64,000 bases of DNA from NCBI GenBank assembly GCA_030653385.1, contig JAURZM010000047.1, positions 1-64,000 of the forward strand, in the 5' to 3' direction. Positions 1 to 14,953 of this stretch are shown one piece after another. Position 1 is the stretch's first letter. Each line of letters opens with the position of its first letter. The stretch comes from Rubrivivax sp. (lineage in GTDB: Bacteria; Pseudomonadota; Gammaproteobacteria; Burkholderiales; Burkholderiaceae_C). The translations under genes and the position numbers were made by a program. The notes beneath the pieces were generated by a model. It made no database searches, was not told the origin of the DNA, and saw nothing but the letters and a program-made list of their open reading frames with translations.

Positions 1-1399
1 CTTTCAGGGATGGTTTAGGGGTTTCAATCCACGCGCGCCCGAATGAGGGCGCGCGACACGTGAGTGCCAGCGGACATGATCGCCGAGGACGTGTTTCAAT
101 CCACGCGCGCCCGAATGAGGGCGCGCGACGCTTCGACGCGCGGGTCACGCATGGCTTCAGTCCGTTTCAATCCACGCGCGCCCGAATGAGGGCGCGCGAC
201 CGGCGCCAGCAGGGACTGTGACTTACGGCAACCAGTTTCAATCCACGCGCGCCCGAATGAGGGCGCGCGACCGGGCGGACTTGCCACTGCGCTAATGGCA
301 ACGCAGTTTCAATCCACGCGCGCCCGAATGAGGGCGCGCGACCGTCTGCTCCCCGTCTTCTCCGCCTTGCCCATTGTTTCAATCCACGCGCGCCCGAATG
401 AGGGCGCGCGACGCGTGGTCACGTCAAAGCTGGTCGGGTGGATCACGTTTCAATCCACGCGCGCCCGAATGAGGGCGCGCGACAGGCGCACCGGCAGGGC
501 AAACAGTGAGCGGCATGTGTTTCAATCCACGCGCGCCCGAATGAGGGCGCGCGACCGACAAGCAGGTCGACGTGGCGGCCAGCCTGCAGTTTCAATCCAC
601 GCGCGCCCGAATGAGGGCGCGCGACCAGACGGGCGGATACACGGTCCCGATGACGCCGGTTTCAATCCACGCGCGCCCGAATGAGGGCGCGCGACCGGCT
701 ACTCCGTCGGTCTCACGCAGGGCACCATCGTTTCAATCCACGCGCGCCCGAATGAGGGCGCGCGACGCACGAAGTCGCCCGTGCTGCGCCAGCCCAGCAG
801 TTTCAATCCACGCGCGCCCGCATGAGGGCGCGCGACGGCGGGCAGTGCGGGACGCTTCGGGGTCAGGGATGTTTCAATCCACGCGCGCCCGAATGAGGGC
901 GCGCGACCGCAACCGCGCCTGGTGGGTCATCGACTACGTTGTTTCAATCCACGCGCGCCCGAATGAGGGCGCGCGACGTGGCTGGACGCGCAGGGCGACC
1001 CCGCGCGCCTGTTTCAATCCACGCGCGCCCGAATGAGGGCGCGCGACGAGATTCACGACGCCGGGCGAGCCAAGCGCGCAGTTTCAATCCACGCGCGCCC
1101 GAATGAGGGCGCGCGACACCTGGGCGGCGCTCAGGCGATGCCGGCATGACGTTTCAATCCACGCGCGCCCGAATGAGGGCGCGCGACAGCAGGGCCGGTG
1201 AAAAGCACGCCGGAGTACCTGTTTCAATCCACGCGCGCCCGAATGAGGGCGCGCGACCTTCGGCGGTGACAGCCACCTGACGTGCTGGATGGTTTCAATC
1301 CACGCGCGCCCGAATGAGGGCGCGCGACTTCACGGCGGCGGCGAACAACGCCTGGTTCTTGAGTTTCAATCCACGCGCGCCCGAATGAGGGCGCGCGAC
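1..1399 (-). CRISPR. Type I-C CRISPR array, 20 repeats (37 bp) in the window, 33-35 bp spacers; truncated at the window start
   Basis: Repeat gtttcaatccacgcgcgcccgaatgagggcgcgcgac starts at 21, 93, 164, 235, 306, 376, 447, 519, 589, 659, 730, 800, 871, 941, 1011, 1081, 1151, 1221, 1292 and 1363. The reverse complement ends in ATTGAAAC, so crRNA is transcribed leftward from the cas2 side. Positions 1-20 look like a partial spacer. Confidence 0.99.
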
Positions 1400-1587: not shown

Positions 1588-1878
1588 TCATAGGACCAGC
1601 GGCGCATCAAAGTCCGTGGCTTTGAACTTGCCATGCTCGCGCACTTCGCAGCCTTGTGTGTCCGGCAGGCGATACAGGCGCAGGCAGTCCTGCTCCAGGT
1701 TCACGGCGGCCAGCAGCCGGGCCTCCAGCGCCTCCATCTGCATCAGGTCGATCCGACATTCAAACACCGACTTCTGCACGCGCTGGCCGGTACCCTCGCA
1801 GACCTTGGCCACGCGTCGCAGGCGGCGTCGTCCTTCGCGTGTTTCGGTGTTGACGTCGTAGCAGACGATCACCAGCAT
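1588..1878 (-). CDS. cas2: CRISPR-associated endonuclease Cas2
   Basis: 96 aa, [43 protein letters not shown] is Cas2-like; next to cas1 and the array. Confidence 0.97.
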
Positions 1879-1887
1879 GGCTTGGCC

Positions 1888-2916
1888 TCACCGCATCTGA
1901 AACGGCAGGTAGACCTGGGCCTCGCCCCGCACATGGCGGGCCAGCAACCTCGCCTGCACCAGTGGCACCAATCCCAGCGGCACACTTTCGGCCAGCAGCG
2001 GGTGGCTCAGCGCTTCCTGCTTGCGTTCCTGGTAGGCCACGACGACCGCCTTGCGCGCATCGCCCTGCAGCAGCACGGCGCCACCTTCGCGCTCGTCAAA
2101 GTCGGCTGCTGACAACTGCGCGCGGTTGACCAGGGTCAGCGCCAGGCGGTCGGCAAATGGCCGGAACTCTTCCATCAAGTCCAGTGCCAGCGCCGCGCGT
2201 CCAGGTCGCAGTGCGTGCAAGAAGCCCAATTGTGGGTCCAGGCCCGCAGCCTCGCAGGCGCTGCGGCAGTCGTTCATCCACATCGAATAGAAGAAGGACA
2301 ACAAGGCGTTCATGCGGTCGCGCGGCGGCCGTCGGCTGCGGCCGTCCATGGCGAACGTGGCTCGCAGGTCTTGCCGCACCAGCAGGTTCAGCGCGCCAAA
2401 GTAGTTGCGCGCGGCTTCGCCTTCGATGCCGCGCAAAACGTCCAGGCTGGTGGCCGCTGGCAGCGCGCGCAGGCTGGCGGCCAAGTCAAGCGCGGTGCGT
2501 GTCAGTGCGGCCTCATCGTCGGCAAGCTTGGCCTCACGGGCGCCACGCAGCAACACCTGGCGTTGATTCCTGATCTTGCCGGCCACCACGGCGCGCGCCA
2601 ACTTCAACGTGAAATCGGCGTTGTCGACAGCCCGGTGCTGCGCCTGGCGCAACAGCACGTTGCCGCTGACCTGGCCTTCGAGCCTGGCCTTGAAGCGCCC
2701 GTTGTCGTCCAGCAGCACCAGTGTGATGGCGTCGCTGGCCAACCGGTGCATCAGTGGGCTGCTCACGCCCACATGGCCCATGCACACCACCGCTTGCAGG
2801 TGGTGCAGCGGCACGCGCAACCGCGCTTCGTCACCCACCATCACGCGCAAGGTGTCGTTGTCCAGGCGCAGGTAACTCTCTGGCGTGGTCACGTATAGGG
2901 TATTGAGCAGTTGCAT
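1888..2916 (-). CDS. cas1: CRISPR-associated endonuclease Cas1 (type I-C)
   Basis: 342 aa, MQLLNTLYVTTPESYLRLDNDTLRV...GLDPQLGFLHALRPGRAALALDLMEEFRP is Cas1-like. Confidence 0.97.
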   Translation of the reverse strand: MQLLNTLYVTTPESYLRLDNDTLRVMVGDEARLRVPLHHLQAVVCMGHVGVSSPLMHRLASDAITLVLLDDNGRFKARLEGQVSGNVLLRQAQHRAVDNADFTLKLARAVVAGKIRNQRQVLLRGAREAKLADDEAALTRTALDLAASLRALPAATSLDVLRGIEGEAARNYFGALNLLVRQDLRATFAMDGRSRRPPRDRMNALLSFFYSMWMNDCRSACEAAGLDPQLGFLHALRPGRAALALDLMEEFRPFADRLALTLVNRAQLSAADFDEREGGAVLLQGDARKAVVVAYQERKQEALSHPLLAESVPLGLVPLVQARLLARHVRGEAQVYLPFQMR

Positions 2917-2924
2917 GCCAGGGC

Positions 2925-3575
2925 TTATGCGTCGGGGTCAAAAAGGCCTGGCAAGGCGCCAGCTGCCTGCAGCCGCAATACAGCCTCTGGCTGGCAGCGG
3001 TCGCGCAGCGAGCAGCCCTTGCAGCGCCGCACGTCGGTGGTGGGCGACGGAAGCGTGGCGGTGGCTTGCATCTGGCGTATCGCTCGCGCAGTGTCGGCCA
3101 CCTGCTCGCGCAGCGCAGGGGTGATGTTGACTTCGCGCCTGCGGCGCGAGCTGGCGTAGTAGATTGCGCCCAAGCTCACGTTGCGCCCTGTCATGGTCTC
3201 CAGGCACATCACTTGCGCTGCCAATTGCAAGTTGTCGCAGGCCGCGATGTCGGCTGCCTTGTGCCGCGAGCCGTGTTTGTACTCCACTGGGTACGGCGTG
3301 CCGTCGGGCTCGAACTCCACCACGTCGGCCTTGCCGATGAGGCCCAGCGTGTCGTGCCAGACCGGGAGCGCGCGCTCAATGCGCAGGCCCTTGCGCAGCT
3401 CCATGCCAGGCTGGTCAACCAGCGCGTGCACGGCCTGCCCGCGCTGGGTGTGCAGGTTGTCGTCGAATGCTTGCTCCAGATGGATCAGCCCGCACTGGCG
3501 GGGGCAGTAGGCCCAGTGCTGCAGTGCCGACAGGGGAATGGGGTCGATATCGTCCATACCGTTGGCGCGTGCCAT
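2925..3575 (-). CDS. cas4: CRISPR-associated exonuclease Cas4
   Basis: LSALQHWAYCPRQCGLIHLEQAF...PVEYKHGSRHKAADIAACDNLQLAAQ...RRCKGCSLRDRCQPEA is a Cas4/RecB-like nuclease with Cys residues. Confidence 0.95.
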   Translation of the reverse strand: MARANGMDDIDPIPLSALQHWAYCPRQCGLIHLEQAFDDNLHTQRGQAVHALVDQPGMELRKGLRIERALPVWHDTLGLIGKADVVEFEPDGTPYPVEYKHGSRHKAADIAACDNLQLAAQVMCLETMTGRNVSLGAIYYASSRRRREVNITPALREQVADTARAIRQMQATATLPSPTTDVRRCKGCSLRDRCQPEAVLRLQAAGALPGLFDPDA

Positions 3576-3618
3576 TGCGTCCGACTAAACTTTGAGCCAG
3601 CACATCCTGGAGCCCCAC

Positions 3619-3843
3619 ATGTCAACCTCCGCCCAAATCGTAGAAGCCGAAGCGATGAAGCTCACGCCAAGTGAACGAGCCGATCTGGCCGACAGACTTT
3701 GGCTGAGTGTCAATACAAGGGATGAAGTCGATGCCGCGTGGGAGGCCGAGATTGCACGTCGTATGCAGCAGATCGATTCCGGTGAGGTCGAGTGCATCCC
3801 CTGGGAAACGGTGATGGCGGAACTGCGTGCCAAGTACAGCTGA
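3619..3843 (+). CDS. Antitoxin of the addiction-module component family (TIGR02574-like)
   Basis: MSTSAQIVEAEAMKLTPSERADLADRLWLSV...; stop overlaps the next ATG (TGATG). The ORF track starts at 3592, but the ATG at 3619 is preferred. Confidence 0.85.
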   Translation: MSTSAQIVEAEAMKLTPSERADLADRLWLSVNTRDEVDAAWEAEIARRMQQIDSGEVECIPWETVMAELRAKYS

Positions 3844-4133
3844 TGCAGATCGTCATCCACCCGGCGGCGCAACACGAACTTGATGCAGCGCTGCAGTGGA
3901 GCAAGACCACTTTTGGTGACGGCACCGCCGCGCGATTGCGGCGCCGGTTTGAGCAGGCTGGCCAGGTGTTGGTGCGCCAGCCGGCCCTCGGAACACTGGA
4001 TGCGGGCCATGTCCGCAAGCTGCGACTGGGCAAGTTCCCGTACACCCTGGTTTACAGGGTGTACGGGAAGGTGATCATGGTGATTGCGCTGGCGCATCAG
4101 AGTCGGCACCCTGGGTACTGGTTAGGGCGCTGA
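3843..4133 (+). CDS. RelE/ParE-superfamily toxin
   Basis: MQIVIHPAAQHELDAALQWSKTTFGDGTAARL...GHVRKLRLGKFPYTLVYRVYGKVIMVIALAHQSRHPGYW is ParE/RelE-like; coupled to the antitoxin. Confidence 0.87.
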   Translation: MQIVIHPAAQHELDAALQWSKTTFGDGTAARLRRRFEQAGQVLVRQPALGTLDAGHVRKLRLGKFPYTLVYRVYGKVIMVIALAHQSRHPGYWLGR

Positions 4134-4157
4134 CGCAGCGCCGAAGCTCTGGGTGCC

Positions 4158-5078
4158 TCAGCAGCGGCGAAGCAGGGTGACCCCCGGCGCTGCCGCCACT
4201 TCCTGACCTACGGCCACTGACGCGCCGTCGAAGGTGACTTCGTAGGCGCCGAAGTCGCGCGCCGGCGCGGCCGGGTCGCGGTTTGTGACGACAAGCCTGT
4301 CGAACAGTGCGTGCGCGTGCGCGTTGCCAAGGTCTGTCGAGTGCTTGAACACATAGAGCCCACGCGTCGCCATCTGCCCGCGTGCGGCCGAGCGGTCATG
4401 TTCGAACATGTCTTCCAGCGCCTTGAAGAACAGTTCCAGGTCGTCGCCAGAGAAGCCCGTCTGTTTGGCAAGGAAGGAAGAGACAAAGCCATGCGAGCGG
4501 TAAAGACCATAGGGCACGGTGTGCTTGCGGCCCATGGTGCGGTTGTCGCCGTCCTGTTTGTCGGCCTCGGCTTCGGTGGCCACGGCCATGCGGGTGATCG
4601 AATGTTCACTGGCGACGATGGGGCCGAGCGACCGTGCAAACGTCATTTGAACCGGACCCCGAACCTGCCCGCAATTGACGCCGGTGGACATCACGGCCCC
4701 AAAGGCGCGAACGTCATAGAAGTTCTTGCAGATCCAGTCACGCGCCTTCTCGACGCTGTCGGCGCTGCCCTTGCGCTTTTTCTTGGCGTCCTTGTCGTCG
4801 CCGCCCAATTCCGCGCTGGCCCCGATGGCTTCATAGGCGGCGCGGTGTGTGCGTTCCAGCACCGCTTTTTCCTTGATGTAGATGTCGTGGGGCGGGGCGC
4901 AGTCCTTCACCAGGCCAACGTAGTTGCGCACCTTGCGCTTGAGCGACACATCGGTCACCAGGCCGTGGCCGGTCTCGGCGTCCAGTCGAGGCAGGTTGCC
5001 TGCATCGGGGTCGCCGTTGGGGTTGCCGTCTTTTACGTCGAAGAGCAGCACAAAGTCATGGCGGGCGGTCACGGTCAT
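4158..5078 (-). CDS. cas7c: Type I-C Cascade backbone Cas7 (Csd2)
   Basis: [54 protein letters not shown] is Cas7/Csd2-like. Confidence 0.97.
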
Positions 5079-5079
5079 T

Positions 5080-5445
5080 TCAGTTCTCCTGAGCGGTGTT
5101 GGTGTCGACGTCTTTGCGGGTGAAGAATTGCTGGCGCTGGTGGTAGTAACCCAAGGCGAAGCGGCCCTGTTGCGCCAGCGTTAGCTGGCGTGGGAAGTCG
5201 CTCATGGGTTCGAGCACCTCACCGATGAGTCGTTCGAAATAGGCCGTCTGGCCATCAGTCAACTTCTTCATGTGCGCGTTTTTTAGGCGCAGCAAGGTGG
5301 TAAATACAGTCACCGGTGTAGTCGATGCCGCACTGTAGTAGCGGTCTCGGATGGTGGCGTTGATCCCAGGCATGGCCTGCCGCTGGATGTGCTCCAGCAC
5401 GGCAAACAGCCGGCCGAGCCGATACGGGGTGTCTGTTTGCGCCAT
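5080..5445 (-). CDS. cas11c: Candidate internally translated small subunit Cas11c
   Basis: In-frame ATG at 5445-5443 inside cas8c ([27 protein letters not shown]..., 121 aa), preceded by AAGGAG (complement of ctcctt, 5455-5460) with a 9-nt spacer. Confidence 0.65.
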
Positions 5446-6864
5446 GTCGAGTTGCTCCTTGAAGTGTTGTGTGTCTGTGGGGGCGTCGGGGTGCTTGCGC
5501 CTGTGATCGCGGTTGAGCCAGGCCTTGAGAACCGCTGCACGCAGGTACGTCACATCCTGCTCGGCCTTGCAGCGCATGACGGCCGCGTTGAGCAACAAGG
5601 CCGGGTAGGGCAATCCTTCGAGAATGGCCCGCATCCATTCACCGGCCAGGCGAGGCGGCACGTTGTCCAGCTTGCCTTGCAGCGCGAGGCTTGTGAGCAG
5701 GCGGAACAGCGAAGGCGTGATTGGATCGCTGTCGAATCGGCGCACCACGCGCAGGTCGTCGAAGTGGCGTGCGATGCGCGGGGCCAGTTCCGCCAGCGGC
5801 GCGTCAAGCCAGAAGCGCACGCTGATGCGAGCCGCGTTGGGCGCCAGGCCCAGCACGAAAAAACGCACATCACGCTCGCCCACAGGCAGCTGCCCGCCCT
5901 TTACCGCCTCGAAAAGCGCCTGCACCGCCCGCACGCCACGGTCCGGGTCGTCCTTCGGTTCGCCAAACAAGTCGGCGAGCGTGAATTCCCCATCGAAGGT
6001 GGAGGCTCGGTCGGCCCAGAACACGGTGGAGGAGTCACCGACCTGAACCCGGTTGCGGGAGCCTGCTTCAAGCAGGTGGTTCAGTGCGGTCGAATAGGCT
6101 GATGAAGCGGCTTTGCCAACTGGAGCGTTCGCTCCTTTGCTATCCCGCTTGCCATAGGAGCTAAAGGAGGCTTTGTTGAACGAAATGATGTTGGCGCCCG
6201 ATGGCTGGGCATCCCACACTCCTTTGATGACAGTCTCGTTGCTTGCAAGGGCGACACAGGAATCGCCAGAGACCAAGCACGTGCCCTGCGACGCTTGCAA
6301 CTCGCCATCAGTCAGCCGGGTCGCGATTGCTTTGCGAACTTCGCCACGGTGATGGACCAATCCTTCTTCGTCACCCACCAGTTGGAAGGCGAGGACAGGA
6401 TCTCGTTGCTCAAAGTCAGTCAACGCGTCAAAGCGTTCCACCAAGCGACGTGCAACATCGGGCTGCCCAACTAGCGCGGCGAGAAACAGATTTACGGCCG
6501 ATACGCCTTCGTCCTGCACATCGCAGAGATAGTGAGCAATGGTCTCGGCAAAGCTGGTGAGCTTTGTGCCACGCACATCACCCCAGCCCAGAGCAAAACT
6601 CGCATTGTCCCAGAGCAGGTTTGCATCTTTGCCGCTGTTGGTGTGCTTGAGTGCCTGCTTGCCGATGGCCGGCAGGAGCGCTGCCTGAGAAAGCCGCTTG
6701 CTCTTCGCCAGAACGAACTGTGGGACCAAGTTGATGCACTCACCTCCACTGCTGAGTACGAGCACGTAGTCCAGCGGGCGACGCACCCAGCCAGGTGGGG
6801 CAATGTCACTTTCAGGCAATGCGCGCTGGCGGTCGTAGTACCGAACGAGTTCCTGCAAGATCAT
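5080..6864 (-). CDS. cas8c: Type I-C large subunit Cas8c (Csd1)
   Basis: 594 aa Csd1-like protein between cas5 and cas7; includes [18 protein letters not shown] and [15 protein letters not shown]. Confidence 0.95.
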
Positions 6865-7517
6865 CGCGCGCCCTCCTGCTCGGGCAGGTCAATGACGCCA
6901 TCGTTCATCTGCGCACGAAAGAACATCGCCTGCGGATCGGCCGGGTTGGTGAAGTCCATGTCACGCAGCATCCATCCCATGTCTCGCGTTTCCGCGATGG
7001 CTGATGGTTCGCCTGCTGTTGACTCGATGGGTCGCACCCGCGCGTCGAACTCACGGCAACCCAGATACGGCTGGTTCACGCATTGCCCGCTGGCCGACCG
7101 CCGCTCAAACATACTGAAGAATTTCTGCGCCGGCTGCGCGTCGCTTCGGTCCGCGCGCACCTCCATATCGGCATGCACGCGGTAGGCCACGTCCCGCAGG
7201 AACAGGCCCGCGCGTTGCTGTCGGTCGTCTTCAATGTAGATCGCCAACTCGCCACAACCATCGGCCATTGCCTGCTGCACATTTCGGGTGGATATGACCG
7301 ACGCCACCTCGTTGCGACGCAGATTGATCCAGCGCACGGGCCGCAGCACCTCGATGCGCCGCACATGCCAGCGCACTGCCGGTTTCCAGAAAATGGCCTC
7401 GAACACAGCGCGTGCGGCCGATGGTGTGATCACGTCGTAGGAGACGCGCTCGACTTTCATCTCGGGCCGCGTGAAGCAGGCGTAGTCGCCCGCGATTTCA
7501 AGACAGTAGCGTTTCAT
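6861..7517 (-). CDS. cas5c: Type I-C Cas5 (crRNA-processing Cas5d-type)
   Basis: MKRYCLEIAGDYACFTRPEMKVERVSYDVITPSAARAVFEAIFWKPAVRWHVRRIEVL is the Cas5c signature; overlaps cas8c by 4 nt. Confidence 0.97.
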   Translation of the reverse strand: MKRYCLEIAGDYACFTRPEMKVERVSYDVITPSAARAVFEAIFWKPAVRWHVRRIEVLRPVRWINLRRNEVASVISTRNVQQAMADGCGELAIYIEDDRQQRAGLFLRDVAYRVHADMEVRADRSDAQPAQKFFSMFERRSASGQCVNQPYLGCREFDARVRPIESTAGEPSAIAETRDMGWMLRDMDFTNPADPQAMFFRAQMNDGVIDLPEQEGAR

Positions 7518-7540: not shown

Positions 7541-9886
7541 TCAGGGCACCAGACTCGCTGCATCCATGGCCTGGCCTTCCGGCTTGAGACCGTACCGCCT
7601 GTCGTAGCGCAGTTCGTCAATCAGCAGGTACAGGCCAGGCTGCAGCTCATGCACGTCCCCACGCGCATGCCACACGTTCACCATGTTCTGTCGCACCGTG
7701 ACCGTGTATCGCTGCAGTTTGCGCAGCAGCCAGCGGTCGGTGTCGCCGCGGCGAAGGCTGGCGATCAGTGGCGCGGTATCGGTGGCATCGGCCCCGTCGC
7801 TCGTGTAGGGCACGATCACGGTCGCTTGCTGTGCGTCATCGACGAGCTTGAACTTGTCTGCAGCGGTACGGAACGCCATCGCGAAGTCACCGCGATTGCG
7901 CAGGTCATCGACGATGCCGCGCTTGTCGCGGCTGGGGAAGCCTGCGTAGTAGAGCGGGAAGTAGCGTTCAAAGGCAGCAGGCGCCAGGGCATCGGACAGA
8001 CCGAGTGCCAGGGTGCTGCGGGTCGCATCAATGCCTGCTCGCACCTGGGTCAGCGGTGCAGGCACCTTGCGCACGAAGACGAACACCTGGCCTTTTGCTT
8101 GCAGTCCTTCGCGGTTGCAGCGCCCGGCCGCCTGGGCAATGGAGTCGAGACCGGCGAGTGCGCGAAACACCACCGGGAAGTCGATGTCCACGCCAGCCTC
8201 GATCAGCTGCGTGCTGACCAGGCGAAGCGGGCGCCCGTCTGTGCCTGCTCGGCGGTCTGCAAGTCGTTGGCGGACGTGCCGGATGATGTCTGCACGGTGT
8301 TGACCGCACATCGCGGCCGACAGGTGCAGCGTCTCTTCCGTGCCGATGGCGTCGAGTGCGGTCACGATCTCAAAGGCATCGTTGCGGGTGTTGACGATGG
8401 TCAGCACGCATTCATGCACCGCGATTCGTTGCGCCAGTTCCGGTGTGGGCTGCACGGCCTGCAGATCGTCCGGCCATTCGATGTGCACCCGCTTCAGTTG
8501 AGTGAACAGTGCTGCTTCGTTGTCGATGATGGCTGTGGGCTGCGGCAGCCCGCGCAGGTCTTGTCGGCGATCAAAGCGTTGCATGTCGCCCAGCGCGGGC
8601 TGTGTCGCCGTGCACAGCAGGAGTGTGACGCCATAGTGGCTGACCAGGACGTTGAGGGTGTCGAGGATGGGTTGCAGGAAGTCCGGTGGCAGCAGTTGTG
8701 CTTCGTCGAGCACGATCACACTGCCTGCGAGGCGATGCAACTTCCGGCAGCGAGAGGTACGGGCCGCGAACAGCGACTCGAACAACTGAACATTGGTTGT
8801 GACGATCAGCGGAGCGTCCCAGTTTTCGCAGGCCAGGCGGCTGCGCGCCGTGTCGTCACGTTCGTCACCTTCGGCCTGGCTGTGGTGCTCGACCACGGCA
8901 TCTGGCCCGAAGATCTGGCCAAACACATCTGAGGTCTGCTCGATGATGCTGGTGTAGGGAATGGCGTAGATCACTCTTTGCTTGCCGTGGTGAACGGCAT
9001 GCCGCAAGGCGAAGGCCAACGATGACAAGGTCTTGCCTCCGCCGGTGGGAACGGTCAGTGTGAAGACGCCTGGCGGTGCCGTGGCCTTGTTGCAGCACAG
9101 TTTCAAAACCTCAGCGCGCGCGTGCATCACCGGGTCGTCGCTCCGCCCGCTGATTGCTACGGTGGCCGCCTTCTTGGCCAGGTGATTGTCAAGTTGCTGC
9201 TGGTACCAGCCGAGCGGCTGACAGCCTTGCCGCTGAACGCTGCGCTTGGCGTTCATGAAGGCCTCGGTATCGAGAAAGTCCGCGTCCACCAAGGCAGAGA
9301 ACAGCATGCGCACCCACAGCGACCATGCCAAGGGATTGCCTTCCTGCACGCCGGGGATTGCGCTGCATGCCGCCCGGAATTCGAAGTCCGCAGGCAAAGC
9401 CAGCAACTCGGGTGCCACCGCGTGGCAAGCACTCAGCGCTTGTGCGTATTCCGTTTCGCTGGCCTGCGCGCCAGTGCCCAGCAGGCGGGTATCGAGGCCA
9501 GCAGTCCAGTCTGCAAGGCCAGTGTGGTGCCCTGCGATCACGTAGGCGATGGGCCTGGCAACCAAAGCGCCGGCGCGCCCGTAGGTCTGTTCAAAGAGAC
9601 GAAGCGCGTGCAACGCGCCGGCTGCGGAGTGGGTCTTGTCGCTGCTGGCCGGCAGCTTGCCCTCGATGTGCGCGTCATTGACGAGCCGGATGTACTGCTG
9701 AAATCCGGGTCTGAACTTGCCGAGGTCGTGCCAGAGGCCTGCGATCCGAGCCCAGTCCGCGCCCCAACCCTGAGCGGAAGTGCCGGCTGTGCTCGCAACC
9801 GCATTGAGGTGGTCCACCAAGACATGCGAACGCGTCAATGCCGAGCCAGTCTCGGTGTGCGTGTGCGCCAGGAAGTCTTGTGTCAC
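7541..9886 (-). CDS. cas3: CRISPR-associated helicase/HD nuclease Cas3
   Basis: HD region (LWHDLGKFRPGFQQYI), TVPTGGGKTLSSLAFALRHA (Walker A) and VIVLDEAQLLPP. The ORF track starts at 10039, overlapping the upstream gene; GTG at 9886 (VTQDFLAHTHTETGS) is preferred. Confidence 0.95.
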   Translation of the reverse strand: MTQDFLAHTHTETGSALTRSHVLVDHLNAVASTAGTSAQGWGADWARIAGLWHDLGKFRPGFQQYIRLVNDAHIEGKLPASSDKTHSAAGALHALRLFEQTYGRAGALVARPIAYVIAGHHTGLADWTAGLDTRLLGTGAQASETEYAQALSACHAVAPELLALPADFEFRAACSAIPGVQEGNPLAWSLWVRMLFSALVDADFLDTEAFMNAKRSVQRQGCQPLGWYQQQLDNHLAKKAATVAISGRSDDPVMHARAEVLKLCCNKATAPPGVFTLTVPTGGGKTLSSLAFALRHAVHHGKQRVIYAIPYTSIIEQTSDVFGQIFGPDAVVEHHSQAEGDERDDTARSRLACENWDAPLIVTTNVQLFESLFAARTSRCRKLHRLAGSVIVLDEAQLLPPDFLQPILDTLNVLVSHYGVTLLLCTATQPALGDMQRFDRRQDLRGLPQPTAIIDNEAALFTQLKRVHIEWPDDLQAVQPTPELAQRIAVHECVLTIVNTRNDAFEIVTALDAIGTEETLHLSAAMCGQHRADIIRHVRQRLADRRAGTDGRPLRLVSTQLIEAGVDIDFPVVFRALAGLDSIAQAAGRCNREGLQAKGQVFVFVRKVPAPLTQVRAGIDATRSTLALGLSDALAPAAFERYFPLYYAGFPSRDKRGIVDDLRNRGDFAMAFRTAADKFKLVDDAQQATVIVPYTSDGADATDTAPLIASLRRGDTDRWLLRKLQRYTVTVRQNMVNVWHARGDVHELQPGLYLLIDELRYDRRYGLKPEGQAMDAASLVP

Positions 9887-9935
9887 GGGCGTTTGGCGTT
9901 TGTTCGATTCGTGCGTATGGTCCCACTCTTCAGGC

Positions 9936-10934
9936 TCATGGCGTGACCCTGCCGCCCAGCTTCTCCACTCCCGCCCGCAGTTTCTCCGCCACCACTTCCC
10001 GCAGCGCCTTAGGCCCCAGCACCGCCACCTCCGGCACATGGCGCAAGATGTCCATCACCAGCTCGCGCGGGTCGGCGTAGGGCAGCTCCAGCAGGTAGCT
10101 GCCGTCCGTTTCGAAGCGCCCACGCTGGTTCGGGTGCCAACTCTCCGCCGCCACCCATCGCGCGCGCTCGGCGCTGAAACGCAGCCGCGCCCAGCACACA
10201 CGGCGGCCGGCAAAGATGCCGTAGCCGGCGCCCAGCACCTCGTCCAGTTCGCCGTCGGGCACGTCGATGGCTTGCGCTTTCAGCACGCTGGCACTGCGAA
10301 TGGCATCGACGGCAAAGCTGCGCAGGCCGCGCGCCTTGTGGCACCAGGCGTCCAGGTACCAGTTGTCGCGGTAGTGCACCAGGCGTTGCGGTGAGACCTC
10401 CCGCTCCTGTGTCAGGTTGCGCCCGCGCCCGTGGTAGCTGATCTGCAGCCTTCTTCTGCTCAGCAGCGCCGAGCCCACGGCTTGGAAGTGGGGCAGGTGC
10501 AGTGGCCGCGCGCCTACGGTTTGCACGCGGATGCGCCGCACGACTTCAACACCCGCGCTGGCGCTGGCACCGCTGCCCAGCAGTTGGGTGAGGCGCGCGG
10601 CCAGCGGTGCGATGTGCGGCCCCAGCAAGCCACCGCTGTCCAGGTGCGCCAGCAGGTGCTGCATGGTCAGCAGGGCATGGATTTCTTCGGCCGTGAACCA
10701 CAGTCCGGGCAGTTCGTACTGGGTGCCGGGCAACTGGGCTGCCGAGTCCAGCCGCCACCCGACCTGCTCTCGGTCCCACACCACGGGGGCGTTCATGCGT
10801 TCGCGCAGGTGCGCGATGTCGCGCTTCAACGTGGCTGGGGATACACCCAGATGGTTCAGCAGTTGGGCTTTGTCCAGGCAGCGACCGGTGTCTAGCTGCT
10901 GCTTGATCTTGTAGAGACGCTCGGCTTGCCCCAC
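9936..10934 (-). CDS. HTH/WYL-domain transcriptional regulator
   Basis: N-terminal HTH (LLNHLGVSPATLKRDIAHLRERM) and WYL-type core (HYRDNWYLDAWCHKARGLRSFAVDAI); same strand as and next to cas3. Confidence 0.88.
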   Translation of the reverse strand: MGQAERLYKIKQQLDTGRCLDKAQLLNHLGVSPATLKRDIAHLRERMNAPVVWDREQVGWRLDSAAQLPGTQYELPGLWFTAEEIHALLTMQHLLAHLDSGGLLGPHIAPLAARLTQLLGSGASASAGVEVVRRIRVQTVGARPLHLPHFQAVGSALLSRRRLQISYHGRGRNLTQEREVSPQRLVHYRDNWYLDAWCHKARGLRSFAVDAIRSASVLKAQAIDVPDGELDEVLGAGYGIFAGRRVCWARLRFSAERARWVAAESWHPNQRGRFETDGSYLLELPYADPRELVMDILRHVPEVAVLGPKALREVVAEKLRAGVEKLGGRVTP

Positions 10935-14210: not shown

Positions 14211-14528
14211 ATGGCCACCCTGACCATCCGCGATCTCGACGACGCGCTCAAGCAAAGCCTGCGCATTCGCGCCGCCCACCGCAACCGGTCGATGGAAGAA
14301 GAAGCGCGCCAGATTCTTCGTGCCGCGCTGACTGACGTGTCAACGCCAGGCCCCGATCTGGCCCAACGTATCCGGGCCCGCTTTTCTGGCCTGGGCGACA
14401 TCACTCTGCCGATGGCTGAACGCGAGCCCGTCCGCCCTCCGCCGACCCCGGACTTGCCTGCCGCGCGAACCGTGGTCGCTCGTGCCCTTGGCAAGCGCTC
14501 GCGGCCGGCCCCCAAGCGAAAAGCGTGA
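14211..14528 (+). CDS. FitA-like (Arc/RHH) antitoxin
   Basis: MATLTIRDLDDALKQSLRIRAAHRNRSMEEEARQILRAAL is the FitA/RHH signature. Confidence 0.9.
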   Translation: MATLTIRDLDDALKQSLRIRAAHRNRSMEEEARQILRAALTDVSTPGPDLAQRIRARFSGLGDITLPMAEREPVRPPPTPDLPAARTVVARALGKRSRPAPKRKA

Positions 14529-14953
14529 AGACACTGCTCGACACGAACGTGTTGTCGGAGCTTTTGCGTGCACAGCCCGCTGCAGCCGTGCTGGCCTGGT
14601 TCGCGGCCCGACCGCCGGAGCAGTTGTTCGTCAGTGCCGTCACGCAGGCCGAGATGCTGCTGGGTGCTCGCCTTCTGGCCCCTGGCAAGAGGCGCCAACA
14701 GCTGCAAGGGGCGCTGGACGCCATGTTCCGAGACGATTTCGGCGCGCGAGTGCTTGCCTTCGATAGCGCCGCGGCGCTTGTCTACGCCGACTTGGTGGCC
14801 GGGCGGCGCGGCGCAGGTCGCCCGATCTCGCAGTTCGACGCGCAGATTGCCGCTATTGCACTCAGCCGCGACGCCGGTGTGGCCACGCGCAATGTGGCCG
14901 ATTTCCAAGGCTGCGGGCTGGTCGTCACCAACCCTTGGGAACCGGACGTTTGA
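14525..14953 (+). CDS. PIN-domain toxin (VapC/FitB family)
   Basis: MKTLLDTNVLSELLRAQPAAAVLAWFAARPPEQLFVSAVTQAEMLLG...FDAQIAAIALSRDAGVATRNVADF. Confidence 0.94.
   Translation: MKTLLDTNVLSELLRAQPAAAVLAWFAARPPEQLFVSAVTQAEMLLGARLLAPGKRRQQLQGALDAMFRDDFGARVLAFDSAAALVYADLVAGRRGAGRPISQFDAQIAAIALSRDAGVATRNVADFQGCGLVVTNPWEPDV

Follow-up and report, generated by a model that had tools for sequence, protein, structure and literature searches.

The type I-C CRISPR-Cas locus in the 64,000-nucleotide stretch of Rubrivivax sp. DNA analysed here (the window) contains a type II toxin–antitoxin (TA) pair between cas7c and cas4, in a slot that recurs across type I-C loci, whose content is TA-specific and whose occupants turn over; the pair is under purifying selection and has a promoter-like element of its own. 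We see about an even chance that it is a self-expressed TA module docked in a recurrent slot between the effector and adaptation halves of the operon, where it would guard the locus through linkage-based addiction.

The type I-C locus and its embedded TA pair

Searches with Pfam and NCBIfam models recovered a complete type I-C system, with the gene order cas3-cas5c-cas8c-cas7c-cas4-cas1c-cas2 and an adjoining array, comprising the following features.

21-1399, minus strand (inferred, since type I-C repeats usually point this way): CRISPR array of 20 tandem repeats of 37 nt and 19 spacers, cut by the contig edge at position 1
1588-1878, minus strand: cas2 (PF09827, TIGR01573)
1888-2916, minus strand: cas1c (TIGR03640, 497 bits)
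2925-3575, minus strand: cas4, start of the adaptation module (PF01930, TIGR00372)
3586-3591, plus strand: -10-like element TAAACT of the TA operon, within ACTARACT, conserved in L002, L018, L145 and L147
3619-3843, plus strand: antitoxin (PF09720 / TIGR02574), 81% identical to the L002 copy
3843-4133, plus strand: toxin of the RelE/ParE superfamily (PF05016 ParE_toxin), 77% identical to the L002 copy
4035-4069, no strand assigned: 15-bp perfect inverted repeat with a 5-nt loop, within the toxin gene, not conserved
4158-5078, minus strand: cas7c, end of the effector module (TIGR02589, 402 bits)
5080-6864, minus strand: cas8c (TIGR01863)
6861-7517, minus strand: cas5c (TIGR01876)
7541-10039, minus strand: cas3 (TIGR01587, TIGR01596)
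9936-10934, minus strand: WYL-domain regulator, upstream of cas3 (PF13280, PF25583)

The true start of cas3 is probably downstream of 10039, because its open reading frame overlaps the WYL gene.

The antitoxin scores 66.5 bits against PF09720 (curated Pfam cut-off 23.3) and also matches TIGR02574, while the toxin scores 42.7 bits against PF05016 (curated Pfam cut-off 23) and its profile matches ParE chains with solved structures in the PDB. The antitoxin gene comes first, an order common to slot and non-slot homologues, and its stop codon overlaps the toxin start in the sequence TGATG (3841-3845). The pair is a predicted type II TA of the PF09720 / RelE-ParE kind, organised as one operon; it shares gene order, overlap, domains and a promoter-like element of its own with other PF09720 (TIGR02574) and RelE/ParE pairs, and differs from them only by its location inside a cas operon. 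The target of ParE is gyrase and that of RelE is the ribosome.

As an earlier note on this DNA had read from the sequence, the pair lies on the plus strand between cas7 and cas4, with margins of 43 nt on the cas4 side (3576-3618) and 24 nt on the cas7 side (4134-4157). Its remark that no transposase or insertion scar is evident was borne out, with neither a transposase nor a target-site scar found in the cas7-cas4 interval of the window and both flanking reading frames intact. The comparison of relatives at this junction that it had proposed recovered this pair, with gene order and orientation unchanged, in the slot of the closest relative, a locus from the same genus (L002, Cas7 94%), where a second TA (FitA/PIN) adjoins cas4. 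Compared with L002, the window's antitoxin has a pN/pS of 0.25 and its toxin one of 0.30, at a dS of about 0.5, and both genes are under purifying selection; values for other slot pairs range from 0.05 to 0.53. The placement of the TA is thus not due to chance, given the identical arrangement in L002 and these pN/pS values.

Within the limits of the searches, the window's own genome (contamination score 7%) gave no second copy of this toxin or of a PF09720 antitoxin. The ParE, PIN, HicA and DUF5615 toxins counted in its 6 Mb number only about a dozen, a genome-wide rate that comes from single-family searches with a screen that is not fully sensitive. A second TA-like pair, a FitA-like small open reading frame followed by a PIN-domain VapC-like toxin, lies outside the cas locus at 14211-14953 on the plus strand. 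The inverted repeat at 4035-4069 is the sole perfect hairpin of at least 11 bp in the window; it is absent from homologues, so a functional hairpin was rejected and a local mutation is its probable origin.

Occupancy of the cas7-cas4 junction

Type I-C loci were gathered by Cas7 alignments, blind to TA content, and a junction was scored as carrying an insert when at least 250 bp separated the cas7 stop from the cas4 start, the same size being applied elsewhere. Inserts were present at cas7-cas4 in 64 of 100 loci, compared with 0/105 at cas8-cas7, 0/68 at cas5-cas8, 2/87 at cas4-cas1 and 1/64 at cas1-cas2, while cas3-cas5 was open in 10 of 61 loci; these gap sizes depend on extrapolated start codons, and many loci come from metagenome assemblies. 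With class- and phylum-level draws included, occupancy in the dereplicated set was 70 of 129 loci (62/93 nearer loci, 4/18 at class level and 4/18 at phylum level), in two overlapping locus sets dereplicated by identical cas7 ends only. By our own count, roughly half of the type I-C loci were occupied in 400 genomes drawn evenly from the same family, and four distant plasmid type I-C loci annotated around the slot had no gene in it. The earlier view of a protein TA at this position as an unusual architecture was therefore wrong, since the slot is widely occupied.

The 70 dereplicated inserts comprise 56 TA pairs, 11 BRO genes, one RhuM gene and two others, and the TA pairs span at least nine family combinations. 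The occupants are listed below with their counts; HicB-like proteins and the small partners of RelE had no Pfam match, and their antitoxin label comes from adjacency to a HicA or ParE toxin.

PF09720/ParE, antisense: 19
HicB-like/HicA: 11
BRO: 11
DUF433/DUF5615: 8
Small open reading frame/RelE-ParE: 4
PF09720/ParE, sense: 4
DUF2281/PIN: 3
DUF4258/YgiT: 3
FitA/PIN, antisense: 2
HigBA-like: 2
RhuM: 1
Other: 2

These counts bear on the main rival explanation, a genuine possibility that we nevertheless hold to be on the doubtful side, namely that TA modules, which change location frequently and, once inserted, are not easily lost, accumulate at a permissive cas7-cas4 gap with no benefit to CRISPR. 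This junction is the main site at which an insert spares both reading frames and translational coupling: the coupled junctions cas5-cas8 and cas8-cas7 (median gaps of -3 nt and 2 nt) never carry inserts, whereas uncoupled ones do, and tolerance alone could explain the position because the slot junction is not translationally coupled. TAs also occur occasionally at cas3-cas5 (Phd/PIN pairs in L049, L057 and L059) and at cas4-cas1 (in L041, where a MazF-type toxin and its RHH-like partner are antisense), which fits the passenger view. Neutral inserts should, however, include transposases and ordinary genes, of which there are almost none among the 70, and sense TAs lie within a few bases of cas7 and cas4, like integrated operons.

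The BRO, RhuM and NYN-like occupants are not classical TAs. A BRO-N-domain gene lies in the slot in sense orientation in L055, L065, L072, L073, L099, L101, L105, L109, L110, L114, L205, L206, L208 and L222, and matches the phage-defence candidate PDC-S13 (L073 tested). Rare non-TA occupants were found in L220, L223 and L177, among them a gene starting MRTICYVDGYNLYY, which resembles an NYN-type ribonuclease by eye and has no Pfam match, and, in a Neisseria record, a small protein that by eye looks similar to EVE/PUA-like domains.

The match to PDC-S13 would fit a role of slot TAs and BRO genes as second-line abortive-infection or fail-safe genes, co-inherited with CRISPR and triggered by phage infection or failed interference, and the spacing of sense occupants makes their co-transcription with cas genes likely. 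Such a defence partnership is nonetheless improbable for the window's TA, which matches no PADLOC defence model and has the opposite orientation and its own promoter-like element; the interchangeability of occupants among unrelated families also speaks against it.

Turnover of slot occupants

Slot contents differ even within the genus. Two further loci (L003 and L004) carry a sense DUF433/DUF5615 pair in the cas7-cas4 gap, and in a third (L005) such a pair begins in the gap before the contig end cuts the locus. On the Cas7 tree, a quick tree with many open forks, the slot state changed at least 39 times, with at least 24 changes between occupied and empty. Several loci retain fossils of former occupants, namely a lone HicB beside a ParE TA (L050), a broken YgiT beside a RelE TA (L067/L124), two antitoxins (L090), a window-type pair in decay next to a newer pair (L160) and two antitoxins with one toxin (L187), and these argue for a succession of occupants. 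TAs also decay in place, as in the damaged pair of L006/L008 and in L026 and L050, where HicB is present and no HicA was found. The turnover and decay of occupants are in keeping with the passenger explanation as well.

Slot ParE toxins form several groups on the toxin tree (four changes, against 15 when shuffled). In several groups slot toxins are mixed with non-slot toxins, as a passenger origin would also allow, and the window's own group is intermixed with non-CRISPR copies. Toxin distance correlates slightly better with that of Cas4 (r 0.36, p 0.002) than with that of Cas7 (r 0.23, p 0.014), and strict co-descent of TA and cas genes was rejected because these correlations are weak.

Ten loci encode a divergent type I-C Cas7 with 30–38% identity to that of the window; that of L160, the sole divergent locus scanned, passes the I-C Cas7 model. 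The slot is filled in eight of the ten, by antisense ParE pairs, HicBA, BRO, FitA/PIN or stacks of modules. The L160 cas4 piece is 91% identical to that of the window whereas Cas7 is only ~30% identical, so the slot sits at a recombination point between effector and adaptation modules. In L225 (about 3400-3880) and L152, the cas7-cas4 slot of a divergent type I-C locus is empty, and a PF09720/ParE pair whose toxin is broken occupies the interval from the WYL regulator to cas3.

Deletion scars

Three independent remnants of cas loss retain the slot element. In L203 an intact HicBA pair accompanies the tail of cas7, and the 4-kb stretch yielded no further cas gene. In L202 the tail of cas7 survives with a BRO gene that is joined in frame to the end of cas1, and a remnant of cas3 is close by. 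In L006/L008 the tail of cas7 and the head of cas4 remain, together with a DUF433/DUF5615 pair that is damaged. The BRO-cas1-tail fusion of L202 (2031-2936, plus strand) was made by deletion in the remnant locus. Retention of the slot element after cas loss is what addiction predicts, but the three scars were found only by Cas7-baited searches, and so small a number could have arisen by chance.

Expression and orientation

At 26–31 nt before the antitoxin, the ACTARACT element is conserved in L002 and L018 as well as in two copies outside CRISPR loci, L145 and L147; the TA thus has its own promoter-like element and is probably self-expressed. This bears on the mechanism put forward in the earlier note, in which read-through cas transcription, antisense to the TA, represses the toxin, or the TA acts as a roadblock that splits expression of the two cas halves. 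The betaproteobacterial loci of the window's TA family are antisense without exception (19/19 in the main set), this orientation holds across groups split by the toxin tree, and the spacing is tight, all of which would suit such an arrangement. Most other slot TAs are in sense orientation, however (HicBA, DUF433/DUF5615, VapC-type, HigBA, DUF4258/YgiT and RelE-type), as is the sister PF09720/ParE family in another clade (L184, L186, L187 and L190), so that an obligatory antisense orientation was rejected. Together with the ACTARACT element, which is common to non-CRISPR copies, the sense occupants argue against antisense control by cas transcription. The roadblock is likewise unneeded, and a terminator separating the cas halves was rejected, as no terminator-like site was found in the slot. 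We regard both versions of this explanation as very improbable.

Proposed mechanism

The explanation that we prefer, addiction by linkage from a docked TA, requires no cas transcription to restrain the toxin. The slot lies where the effector genes (cas3-5-8-7) meet the adaptation genes (cas4-1-2) in proteobacterial type I-C operons, and the module would itself produce both a labile antitoxin and a stable toxin. When the middle of the cas locus is deleted, the antitoxin gene would go with it, the remaining toxin would then stop growth, and mid-locus cas deletions would be selected against. Position would matter to this mechanism, while the orientation and family of the TA would not. The analysis is comparative and sequence-based throughout, and toxicity, neutralisation by the antitoxin and addiction by linkage are inferred from it.

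The earlier guard idea thus stays plausible, given that the TA is present in close relatives, that unrelated TAs refill the slot and that slot elements are kept in scars, but its antisense mechanism is not supported. More tentatively, proteobacterial type I-C operons may keep a guard slot in which unrelated TA families would serve as convergent, exchangeable locks that put a cost on deleting the immune locus. The TA module is dispensable over evolution, because the slot is empty in roughly half of the loci.

Relation to known systems and significance

TA pairs interspersed in archaeal cas cassettes have already been published: a 2015 review of the Sulfolobales describes cas cassettes with interspersed vapBC pairs and cites a suggestion that these help to maintain CRISPR-Cas in the population (PMC4390879). 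The window likewise has a complete type II TA between cas genes. The archaeal pairs are interspersed in type III-D and other cassettes (PMC4390879), whereas the bacterial type I-C slot is one fixed junction with at least nine exchangeable family combinations. Table 3 of Makarova 2006 (PMC1462988) gives HicB, COG2442, PIN-domain and Ant-like genes as loosely associated with cas loci, near which they occur in a single genome or a few; position, recurrence and the slot are absent from that list.

The RNA-based CreTA, located between cas6 and cas8 (PMC9458426), is similar in placing a toxin module in a cas intergenic gap and in making the cell dependent on the cas locus, as is proposed here. Its antitoxin needs Cascade and degenerate repeats (PMC9458426, PMC8501985), whereas both parts of the window's module are proteins, no degenerate repeat was found and the proposed mechanism needs no Cas proteins. 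A CreTA-like RNA antitoxin was rejected, the best repeat match in the slot being 9 against a shuffled mean of 10.1, and the 19 array spacers gave no match to the TA and no self-targeting.

The recurrent bacterial type I-C slot appears to be undescribed so far. The literature searched, from which the 2018 neighbourhood survey (PMC6003329) was left out, contained no description of it, and a term search of a 2025 review of TA–CRISPR coupling (PMC12737573) gave no match for I-C, embedded or HicA.

If slot TAs act as proposed, the concept of a CRISPR guard would extend from the RNA-based CreTA to ordinary protein TAs; new TA families can also be sought in the slot. CRISPR-Cas loci carry a cost and are frequently lost, and the reason for their persistence is an open question. 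One junction refilled by unrelated TAs amounts to a natural experiment on the stabilisation of immunity loci by addiction modules, and the question is directly testable because occupied, empty, stacked and scarred slots coexist in related bacteria. The recurrent filling of the junction suggests that it is a docking site for genes whose presence makes loss of the immune system difficult.
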